Assembly (NCBI GenBank): GCA_001898835.1
Contig: MKVM01000001.1
Coordinates: forward strand, 1,296,466-1,360,465
Origin: Micrococcales bacterium 72-143
GTDB taxonomy: Bacteria; Actinomycetota; Actinomycetes; Actinomycetales; Microbacteriaceae
Reading direction: 5' to 3'
Length of the DNA: 64,000 nt
Position 1 is the first letter of the stretch. Every line of letters begins with the position of its first letter. The notes below the pieces were generated by a model, which had not been told where the DNA came from, made no database searches, and was given only the letters and a program-made list of their open reading frames with translations. Made by a program: the position numbers and the translations under genes. Shown in pieces: positions 52,618-56,429 of this stretch.

Positions 52618-53619
52618 CTACGCCGAGGGACGGTCGCCCGTGGACGCCTTCGCGTTCGCCTCGTAGGAGGTGTTCGTCGACTCGAAGAAGTTGACGAGCT
52701 CGAGCGTGTCGTTCGCCGTCGCCATCCACTTGGCCGGGTTCACCACGTTGTAGTGCGTGCCGAACCCGAGCTCCTCGAGGCGGCGGTCGGCCAGGTACTT
52801 GACGTACTGGTTGATGTAGTTGGCGTTGAGCCCGAGGATGCCGTTGGGGAGCAGGTCGTTGTTGTACTGCTCCTCCATCTCGACCGCGTCGAGGATCATC
52901 TGCTTGATCTCGGCCGCGAACTCCGGCGTCTGCAGGTCGGGGTTCTCGTCGAGCACGGTGAGGATGAGGTTGATGCCGAACTTGAGGTGCAGCGACTCGT
53001 CGCGCACGATCCAGTCGACGAGGGAGCCGAAGTTGCGCAGCAGGTTCCGCTGGCGGAACGAGAGCGCCACCATGAAGCCCGAGTAGAACCAGATGCCCTC
53101 GAGGATGATGTTGTAGGCGATCAGGTTGCGGATGAAGTCCTGCTTGCCCGCGGTCGTCGTGATGTCGAGGGTCTCCTCGGTCATCCGGCGGATGTAGCTG
53201 ACCTCGAACTCCTCCTTGCGCTGCATGGAGGGGATGTCGACGTGCGAGTTGTAGGCCTCGTTGCGGTCGATCGGGAACGTCTCGAGCACGTACTCGAACG
53301 ACATGCAGTGGTTGGCCTCCTCCCACATCTGCTTCGCGAGGTAGAGGTGCGCCTCGGGGGCGTTGACGTAGGGGTACACGCCGAAGGCGAGGGCCTTGTT
53401 GACGAGCAGCTCGTTGGGGTTGAAGTAGGAGATGAGGAAGGTGACGGCGTGCCGTTCCTCGTCGGTCATCTTCTTGAAGTCGGCGAGGTCCTCGCCGAGC
53501 TGGATCTCGTTGGGGAACCAGGTGTTGGCGACCGCCTGGTCGTAGAGGTCCATCGCCCACTGGTAGGTGATGGGCTTGAGGAGGAGCCCTTCCTGGACCC
53601 CGGTGCCGAGGATGGCCAT
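52618..53619 (-). CDS. nrdB: Ribonucleotide reductase small subunit, class Ic-like
   Basis: A 333-residue R2 protein. Metal ligands by alignment are Glu70, Glu101, His104, Glu174, Glu208 and His211 (in NPNE, EEANH, ILEG and DESLH). The radical Tyr position is Phe108 (EANHCMSF), and the first ligand is Glu rather than Asp. Spacings (31, 73, 34, 3) are the same as in the Chlamydia trachomatis Mn/Fe enzyme. The protein should start the radical needed by NrdA. AAAGGA precedes the ATG at 53619. The tail STNTSYEANAK holds the C-terminal Tyr. Confidence 0.95.
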   Translation of the reverse strand: MAILGTGVQEGLLLKPITYQWAMDLYDQAVANTWFPNEIQLGEDLADFKKMTDEERHAVTFLISYFNPNELLVNKALAFGVYPYVNAPEAHLYLAKQMWEEANHCMSFEYVLETFPIDRNEAYNSHVDIPSMQRKEEFEVSYIRRMTEETLDITTTAGKQDFIRNLIAYNIILEGIWFYSGFMVALSFRQRNLLRNFGSLVDWIVRDESLHLKFGINLILTVLDENPDLQTPEFAAEIKQMILDAVEMEEQYNNDLLPNGILGLNANYINQYVKYLADRRLEELGFGTHYNVVNPAKWMATANDTLELVNFFESTNTSYEANAKASTGDRPSA

Positions 53620-53639
53620 GTCTCTAATTCCTTTCGTGA

Positions 53640-53662
53640 CCGACGGCCGGGACGGCCGTCGG
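53640..53662 (-). promoter_or_regulatory. GC-rich hairpin between nrdA tail and nrdB
   Basis: CCGACGGCC and GGCCGTCGG form a perfect 9-bp stem with a 5-nt loop in the 96-bp gap between the small tail ORF and nrdB. It could attenuate read-through or protect mRNA, setting the subunit ratio. No U-tract follows. Confidence 0.45.
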
Positions 53663-53715
53663 CGCTGGCGTCGCGGCGGACGTCAGAAATGACATCCGCT
53701 CCTAGCTCCAGCGCG

Positions 53716-53796
53716 CTACTGGCAGCTCTCGCACTGCAGTTCGTCCATGGGGTCGACGGGCACCGAGTACTCGTCGACGGCGTTGTAGCCGCTCAT
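53716..53796 (-). CDS. Out-of-frame C-terminal redox tail of NrdA (26 residues)
   Basis: The frame MSGYNAVDEYSVPVDPMDELQCESCQ starts at an ATG overlapping the NrdA stop (ATGA). Codon usage is fully GC3-biased. The terminal CESC pair is what class I NrdA proteins carry at their C-terminus to be reduced by thioredoxin, and the annotated NrdA lacks it. One extra base in the C5 run at 53803-53807 would fuse the two into RRGFGGPRMSGYN...QCESCQ. So it is either a true frameshift, a programmed one, a sequencing error, or a separately made tail. Confidence 0.75.
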   Translation of the reverse strand: MSGYNAVDEYSVPVDPMDELQCESCQ

Positions 53797-56258
53797 CCGA
53801 GGCCCCCGAATCCGCGACGCGGGGCGGCGGCGGGTGCGGCGGCCGGCGCCTCGGTTGCCGGGGCGGCGTCCGACGTGGCGCCGAAGCCGCGCTTGGCGCC
53901 CTGCGAGATCTCCTCGGCCTTGTTGACCTTGACGGTCGACTGCTCGGCCTGGTGGCGGGGCTTCACGTGCAGGTAGTAGGTCGTCTTGACGCCCTTCTCC
54001 CAGGCTGCGTAGTAGATGTCCATCATGTCGCCGAGGTCGCGCGTCTCGAGGTACATGTTGCGGCTGATGGCCTGGTCGATCCACTTCTGGGCGCGCGCCG
54101 CGACCTCGATGAAGGCGTGGGGCGAGAGCTGGAAGCTCGTCTTGTAGACCTTCTTGAGCTCGTCGGGGATCTCGGCGATCACCTGGATGTCGCCCTGGCT
54201 GCGCAGCACCTGCTCGCGGGTCTGCTCCCAGATGCCGAGCCGCTGCAGGTCGGCGACGAGGTTGCGGTTGACCTCGAGGAACTTGCCGTTGGAGGTGGAG
54301 CGGCTGAAGATCTGCGCGAACTGCGGGTCGAGGCCGGGCGTGGTGCCGGCGACGAGGCCGATGGATGCGGTGGGCGCGATCGCCATGAGGGTGGCGTTGC
54401 GCATGCCGCCCTTGACCTTCTCGCGCAGGCGGTCCCAGTCGAGGCGCATGGTGCGGTCGACCGTGATCGGCACGCCGCGGTCCTTCTCGGTGAGCTCGAT
54501 GGAGTCGAAGGGCACGAGGCCCTGCGACCAGCGGGAGCCGGCGAAGTTGTCGTAGGAGCCGCGCTCACGGGCGAGGTCGGCCGACTCGTCGATGGCCGCG
54601 TAGGAGACGTGCTCCATGATCTCGTCCATGAGGTCGTACGCCTCCTCGGACTCGTAGGAGTAGCCGAGCTTCTCGACGACGTCCGTGAAGCCCATGACGC
54701 CGAGCCCGATGGCTCGGTTGGTCTGGTTGGCGTGGTCGGCCTCGGCGACCGACGACTCGGTGATGTCGATGAGGTTGTCGAGCTGACGCACGGCGCTGCG
54801 GGCCGAGTCCTCGATGAGCGCCCAGTCGAATCCGAGGCCGCCGTTCTCGTCCACCTTGAGGTGGGTGGAGAGGTTGATGGAGGCGAGGTTGCAGACGGAG
54901 ATGTTCTCGAGGTCCTGCGGGAGGCAGATCTCGGTGCAGAGGTTGGAGAGGTGGATGGTGCCCGTGTTGTTGTTGAGGGCGCGGTTGTTGATGGTGTCCT
55001 TCCAGGTGAGCCACGGGTGGCTCGTGGTCTGGAGCGACATGAGGATGTCCTTGAACTGCGACCGCGCGGAGATCTTCTTGAACATCCGCAGCTCGCCGGC
55101 CTGGGCCTTGGCGACGTACTCGGCGTAGCGCTCGGAGAACGCCTGCCCGTAGAGCTCGTTGAGGTCGGCGACCTCGAGCGGGTCGAAGAGGTACCAGTCG
55201 TCGTCGTTCTGCACGCGCTTCATGAACTCGTCGGAGATCCAGACGGCCGTGTTGGCGGTGCGGGTGCGGCGGTAGGGGTCGCCGGAGTTCTGGCGGAGGT
55301 CGAGGAACTCGGGGAAGTCGAGGTGCCAGTTCTCCATGTAGAAGCAGAGGGCGCCGAACTTCTTGCCGCCGCGGCTGACCGCGCGCAGCACAGAGTCGAT
55401 CGTGTGCATGAACGGGATGGGGCCCGTCGAGGTGGTGTTGTTGGAGCGGATGGGCGAGCCCTGCGCGCGCAGCTTGGTGACGGAGAGGCCGATGCCGCCG
55501 GTGCCCTTGGTGAGCCACATGACGTCGCGCACGCTCTTCGCGATGTGCTCGATGTCGTCCTGCATCTCCATGACGAAGCAGTTGGAGAGCTGCGGGTAGG
55601 AGGTGCCCGCGTTGACGAGGGTGGAGCCGGCCGCGAGGTACTCGAGCTTCGACATCTTGTCGTAGAACTCGATCGCGTGGCCGGTGGGGTCGGCCTCGTT
55701 GAGCGAGAGGCCCATGGCGATGCGCATCCAGAAGAACTGCGGCACCTCGAGCGGTTCGCCGTTGCGGGCCTTGATGCCGTAGCGGTTGTTGAGGGTGACG
55801 ACGCCGATGTACTTGAGGAGGCCGTCGCGGCTCGGCTCGAGCGCGTCGGCGAGGCGGTCGAGGTCGAAGAGCTCGGGGAAGCGGGAGTCGAGGAGCAGCT
55901 CGGACACGCCGCGCTCGATGGCGCCGCGGAAGTGGCTGCGGTGGAGGGACTTGAGCTCCTCGGCGGTCTCGTAGTCGCCGAGGACGCGCTTGTAGATGGT
56001 CTTGAGGAGGAGGCGGGCGGCGACCGTGTCGAACTGGGGGTCGTCCTTGACGTTCTGCAGCGCGACCTGGATGACGGCCTCGTCGAGCTGCTGCGTCGTG
56101 ATGCCGTCGAAGAGGGTGAGCTCGAGCTCGGATGCGATCTGGGTGACCCAGGTGATGTTCTCGTCGAGCCCTTGGCTCGCGTGCTCGATCGCCAGGTTGA
56201 TCTTGTTGGCGTCGTACGGCTCGCGCTCTCCGTTGCGCTTCACGACGGTGATGGTCAC
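53793..56258 (-). CDS. nrdA: Ribonucleotide reductase large subunit (class I)
   Basis: An 821-residue catalytic subunit. The N-terminal ATP cone (VVKRNGEREPYDANKINLAIEHASQG, about 1-95) is followed by the RNR barrel with SNCFVMEM (first redox Cys), LSNLCTEICLP (catalytic Cys and Glu), SVCNLASINLS (second redox Cys) and APTASIGLVAGTTPGLDPQF. The C-terminus becomes Ala/Pro-rich and ends RRGFGGLG without the usual Cys pair, which lies in the overlapping frame at 53716-53796. GTG start 56258. Tandem NrdR boxes lie upstream. Confidence 0.95.
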   Translation of the reverse strand: MTITVVKRNGEREPYDANKINLAIEHASQGLDENITWVTQIASELELTLFDGITTQQLDEAVIQVALQNVKDDPQFDTVAARLLLKTIYKRVLGDYETAEELKSLHRSHFRGAIERGVSELLLDSRFPELFDLDRLADALEPSRDGLLKYIGVVTLNNRYGIKARNGEPLEVPQFFWMRIAMGLSLNEADPTGHAIEFYDKMSKLEYLAAGSTLVNAGTSYPQLSNCFVMEMQDDIEHIAKSVRDVMWLTKGTGGIGLSVTKLRAQGSPIRSNNTTSTGPIPFMHTIDSVLRAVSRGGKKFGALCFYMENWHLDFPEFLDLRQNSGDPYRRTRTANTAVWISDEFMKRVQNDDDWYLFDPLEVADLNELYGQAFSERYAEYVAKAQAGELRMFKKISARSQFKDILMSLQTTSHPWLTWKDTINNRALNNNTGTIHLSNLCTEICLPQDLENISVCNLASINLSTHLKVDENGGLGFDWALIEDSARSAVRQLDNLIDITESSVAEADHANQTNRAIGLGVMGFTDVVEKLGYSYESEEAYDLMDEIMEHVSYAAIDESADLARERGSYDNFAGSRWSQGLVPFDSIELTEKDRGVPITVDRTMRLDWDRLREKVKGGMRNATLMAIAPTASIGLVAGTTPGLDPQFAQIFSRSTSNGKFLEVNRNLVADLQRLGIWEQTREQVLRSQGDIQVIAEIPDELKKVYKTSFQLSPHAFIEVAARAQKWIDQAISRNMYLETRDLGDMMDIYYAAWEKGVKTTYYLHVKPRHQAEQSTVKVNKAEEISQGAKRGFGATSDAAPATEAPAAAPAAAPRRGFGGLG

Positions 56259-56381: not shown

Positions 56382-56429
56382 CCACTATATATCGGGCCTC
56401 CGACAGCAGGCCAACCCTAGATGTTGTGG
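56382..56429 (-). promoter_or_regulatory. Tandem NrdR boxes at the nrd promoter
   Basis: CCACTATATATCGGGC (56382-56397) and ACCCTAGATGTTGTGG (56414-56429) each resemble the NrdR box ACACWATATWTTGTGT. They start 32 bp apart, three helical turns, as usual for NrdR. The first overlaps the minus-strand TATATAGT -10 region of nrdA. The remaining part of the 285-bp gap shows no other clear site. Confidence 0.75.

Follow-up and report, generated by a model that had tools for sequence, protein, structure and literature searches.

Class I ribonucleotide reductases (RNRs) are described as always having a C-terminal redox cysteine pair on the large subunit, NrdA (PMC6187632). The nearest precedent for a detached NrdA tail is the split class II enzyme of Pseudomonas aeruginosa, NrdJa/NrdJb, where the redox-active C-terminal cysteines reside on a separate small subunit, the 229-residue NrdJb, which provides the thiols and is required in vivo (PMC4520616). 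Reducing thiols are also supplied to a class I RNR in a rearranged manner in Facklamia ignava, in which a redoxin domain (Grx) is fused to NrdB (PMC6187632), the reverse of detaching a tail from NrdA. Among the small subunits, class Ic is recognized by its Phe/Glu pairing, as opposed to Tyr/Asp in classes Ia and Ib and Tyr/Glu in class Id (PMC8463856). Tropheryma whipplei has been listed as class Ic (PMC4009431); actinobacterial class Ic enzymes are already known, hence the group itself is not new.

The window analyzed here, a stretch of 64,000 nucleotides from Micrococcales bacterium 72-143 (Microbacteriaceae), carries an operon (Table 1) which, judged from its sequence, very probably encodes a class Ic RNR whose NrdA redox tail is a detachable, trans-acting product of a separate gene. 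In P. aeruginosa the split enzyme is class II and is divided at one fixed site, whereas here a class I NrdA is concerned and the detached part is a microprotein of 21–50 aa. Unlike NrdJb, this tail is present in several copies, lies away from the operon in some genomes and is also carried by phages. The sequence-only reading of the region described the neighbouring nrdB and overlooked the split NrdA tail beside it.

Table 1. Features of the RNR operon, of the unlinked tail microgene in the same genome and of a viral counterpart.
Feature	Location	Strand	Remarks
nrdB, class Ic RNR small subunit	52618..53619	minus	333 aa; F108 codon 53298-53296, E70 codon 53412-53410
Spacer, tail microgene to nrdB	53620..53715	minus	GAAAGGA Shine-Dalgarno-like before nrdB
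Stand-alone NrdA redox-tail microgene	53716..53796	minus	26 aa, MSGYNAVDEYSVPVDPMDELQCESCQ; ATG overlaps nrdA stop (ATGA)
nrdA, RNR large subunit	53793..56258	minus	821 aa; one ATP-cone
Two-box promoter/operator module, NrdR-box-like (predicted)	56383..56424	minus	ACATCTAG ... TATATAGTG; upstream of nrdA
Unlinked tail copy	window genome, contig C5 880222-880299	minus	MNDVDTVGGYAVPVDPMDDLYCESCQ
Two-box module of unlinked tail microgene	window genome, contig C5 880358-880400
Tail, then nrdA, then class Ic nrdB	viral contig L282 9666-13977

The small subunit had been placed in class Ic from its radical-site Phe108, its first ligand Glu70 and a ligand spacing equal to that of the Chlamydia trachomatis (Ct) R2c protein, and each of these points is upheld. 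The reading frame had been located correctly, with the strand left unstated. NrdB matches the PF00268 profile (Pfam; E 1.8e-76), and its best solved-structure matches are Ct R2c itself (1syy and 4d8f; E about 1e-71), together with 6y2n, where the Phe/Glu pair also occurs; the class Ia protein of Escherichia coli is a weaker match (E about 1e-20). At 37% identity to Ct R2c, the six metal ligands and the radical-site residue align one-to-one (E70=E89, E101=E120, H104=H123, F108=F127, E174=E193, E208=E227 and H211=H230), and the radical-transfer Trp and C-terminal Tyr are also present (W34 = Ct W51, Y319 = Ct Y338). A comparison with relatives, which the sequence-only reading had suggested, returned the identical E/E/H/F/E/E/H/Y residue set in 142 loci, as against Asp and Tyr instead in 18/18 loci of class Ib NrdF; the residue set of NrdB is thus not a chance pattern. 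Membership of the R2lox group is contradicted by the adjoining nrdA, by the presence of Y319 and by NCBIfam R2lox models that fall far below cut-off. Given the residue set, the best structure match and the Phe/Glu pairing, class Ic is the best reading of NrdB and is well supported. The window genome is 99.9% complete and holds one R2 and one RNR large subunit, these being its sole PF00268 and PF02867 genes, respectively; a class III RNR was not found in it.

Position 222 of Ct R2c is a Tyr that serves as an electron relay during assembly of the Ct cofactor. NrdB has Trp203 in its place, as do 142/142 close-relative loci, and the Tyr is kept in locus L022 and in 6y2n. This substitution suggests a different electron relay, such that cofactor assembly may differ in detail from that of Ct R2c. 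It also lends something to the proposal that NrdB is a Phe-type R2 with a di-iron or di-manganese initiator in place of Mn/Fe, as does the fact that, in the literature surveyed, R2c proteins have been characterized in depth from Chlamydia only. This proposal is nonetheless unlikely, as NrdB bears the published mark of class Ic, the Phe/Glu pairing (PMC8463856), and retains all six metal ligands with Ct-like spacing. The radical initiator of NrdB is thus most likely Mn(IV)/Fe(III). NrdB may in addition be tolerant of radical scavengers or peroxide. A functional link to a nearby H2O2-producing oxidase, as formerly put forward, is unsupported, for the same NrdB occurs in 171/400 family genomes and is therefore inherited independently of the neighbouring genes of the window.

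The large subunit departs from the class I pattern at its C-terminus. Its best model is the class I alpha PRK06539, above cut-off, and the active-site residues C227, N439, C441, E443, C456 and Y761/Y762 are present. NrdA contains five Cys in total, and none is found beyond residue 456, that is, in the last 365 aa; the chain ends in ...RRGFGGLG, and the C-terminal redox Cys pair lies in a separate ORF rather than in the same chain. The protein does not belong to the split class II (NrdJa/NrdJb) group either, as NrdJ models fall below cut-off for it and an nrdB partner is present. A single ATP-cone distinguishes it from the Chlamydia enzyme, which has three (PMC9669993). Repeated [RK][RK]GFG motifs occupy residues of about 787–821 and are conserved in split and fused forms of the protein; they possibly serve as a docking motif.

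The missing cysteines are found directly downstream. The TGA of nrdA is overlapped by the ATG of a micro-ORF that lies in the -1 frame; a single G added to a GGGGG run would fuse the two frames. Among 80 relatives collected by protein search, a micro-ORF stands between nrdA and nrdB in 75 and is absent there in 5, each of which has one strong copy elsewhere in its genome. Across relatives, the microproteins are 21–50 aa long and end in YxVPxDPMDxLQC[ED]SCQ, of which P, D, P, C, C and Q do not vary, also with the phage, plasmid and fused forms taken into account. Over the last 17 codons of the tail, codon positions 1, 2 and 3 have diversities of 0.135, 0.103 and 0.329, respectively. This is the pattern of a protein under selection, and the tail is therefore taken to be one. 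Pfam and NCBIfam scans yielded no family for it and a sub-threshold DUF5816 match only. A literature search made largely without subscription papers and bioRxiv preprints brought up no account of an NrdA tail with a gene of its own, so that an earlier description is possible.

Because a single-base change in the homopolymer would join the frames, the split could be imagined as a sequencing error or as a decaying gene of the window strain. This is refuted by the conservation of the tail (75/80 relatives; 177/400 genomes of the family) and by copies elsewhere, to which the codon-position selection and the invariant C, D, P and Q may be added; the chance that it is correct is vanishingly small. 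A related proposal is that the enzyme is not truly split, in that programmed ribosomal frameshifting or re-reading of the stop codon would attach the tail to NrdA. The ATGA overlap with its -1 frame would suit such a mechanism, and the same -4 nt overlap recurs at 50/83 scored junctions (a few genomes being counted twice). However, the tail start lies at -1 nt in 19/83 and as far as +58, all three frames relative to nrdA are used across relatives, gaps of 57–58 nt and in-frame stops intervene in some of them, and there is no fixed slippery site. The varying start position and frame rule out a common frameshift mechanism. As five genomes have the tail solely at another locus, and most genomes hold an extra unlinked copy, joining of the two products is very improbable. 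A truly separate tail gene remains the preferred reading. An AlphaFold model of the NrdA of locus L041, extended past its TAA stop so as to include the tail, had a mean pLDDT of 52.6, too poor to show docking.

In other actinobacterial families, the same tail sequence forms the in-frame C-terminus of NrdA itself, for example ...VDGVACPVDPMERLQCESCQ and, in another case, ...RRGFGA...CPVDPQERLQCESCQ. Such fused swinging tails, with a homologous CPVDPxERLQCESCQ at the C-terminus, occur in families f10, f38 and f45, among others, whereas in the family of the window the tail is a free-standing gene. Since other families carry it fused to NrdA, the split form is derived from the fused form or interconvertible with it.

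The tail is common both among Microbacteriaceae and on contigs of viral origin. Among 400 family genomes it was found in 177 and class Ic NrdB in 171; both were present in 170, NrdB only in 1, the tail only in 7 and neither in 222, and the two thus occur together in 170/178 carriers. The lone genome with NrdB only is 77% complete. Fisher's test gives p of about 1e-103 for this co-occurrence, a nominal value because the genomes are related.

A second copy of the tail is encoded in the window genome on contig C5, where it has a strong Shine-Dalgarno (SD) sequence and a terminator-like inverted repeat. Its neighbours are without evident link to RNR: by eye, from translations, it is flanked by an aminotransferase-like gene and, at the opposite end, by dehydratase-like and murB-like genes. 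The pattern ACATSTAG-N20-32-TATATAGTG has exactly two matches genome-wide, upstream of nrdA and of this unlinked copy, and its reversed control has 0. The strict pattern precedes nrdA in only 3/33 relatives; shared regulation is accordingly shown in the window genome and in the unlinked copies taken together, and not in nrdA across the family. A generic NrdR consensus, at up to 3 mismatches, was not found in the window or in locus L116. In 20 further unlinked copies, TATATAG at 56–82 nt before the ATG, plus an SD, is present in 19, the exception being on a 145-kb contig, and the two-box module is present in 13. At least two tail copies occur in 47/50 tested genomes, and the three single-copy genomes are of 1.0–1.4 Mb. 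Seven copies were counted in genome G440 (that of locus L049) and six in G429 (that of L036), some of which possibly reside in prophages or plasmids.

Stand-alone tails are also carried on Clavibacter, Leifsonia and Gryllotalpicola plasmids and by phages CMP1, CN1A, phiPsal1 and Pan2. On the plasmid of Leifsonia sp. ZF2019 (L189 5962-6063), the 33-aa tail WP_223361114.1 is misannotated as ribonucleotide-diphosphate reductase subunit beta. Pseudanabaena phage Pan2 (L192 2001-2081) encodes a 26-aa tail-like protein, MDDFDTIDGFACPNDPADLVSCESCQ; this phage is assigned to a cyanobacterium, and the host assignment may deserve checking. A degenerate DNA pattern of the tail matched at least 120 viral contigs, and the reversed pattern 0. 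In 79/80 viral contigs examined the match was a small ORF of tail type, the remaining one being truncated at the contig end. Within the stretches examined, an NrdA homologue was present in only 1/80, viral contig L282. The nrdA of that contig is interrupted in frame, directly behind the catalytic Cys, by an intein-like insert of about 300 codons and lacks a Cys tail; the class Ic nrdB that follows is 80% identical to that of the window. A tblastn search with a threshold of E <= 1 detected neither NrdA nor NrdB in CMP1 and phiPsal1, and their annotations list neither. The tails of these two phages would therefore act on the host enzyme.

A mechanism can be proposed in which the microprotein would dock on NrdA via its YxVPxDPMD segment, and its CxxC would, at the end of every turnover, reduce the C227/C456 disulfide of the active site, before being itself re-reduced by a redoxin. 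Acting in trans, the microprotein would stand in for the normal swinging tail as a diffusible and exchangeable part, and the phage and plasmid copies would supply this same part to the host RNR. Conversely, the microprotein may mimic the tail and regulate or inhibit RNR, or serve as a leader peptide for nrdB, with a redoxin or low-molecular-weight thiol re-reducing NrdA directly. Direct reduction of some RNR active sites by DTT has been described, for NrdJa (PMC4520616), and interference would also fit a peptide carried by phages. Yet fused NrdA of other families has this very sequence as its ordinary tail, the microprotein accompanies this NrdB in 170/171 NrdB genomes, and the unlinked copies, being monocistronic, cannot be nrdB leaders. 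Mimicry of this kind is thus improbable, and the tail is better viewed as the reductant of NrdA acting in trans.

A genome whose sole RNR has its cysteine pair on a free protein of 21–50 aa is a natural experiment on whether a swinging tail must be tethered. The tail family has been invisible to annotation, its members being mostly unannotated and once misnamed as an RNR subunit beta, and a synthetic form of the tail peptide offers a ready means of manipulating RNR activity. Phage-borne tails suggest that phages supply a part of the host enzyme and not a whole RNR. On balance, we lean toward the view that an essential class I RNR here has its redox tail in the form of a family of diffusible, exchangeable microproteins, with several gene copies in a genome and a promoter of their own. 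Tail supply could then set dNTP synthesis, and phage and plasmid copies could drive or redirect the host enzyme.
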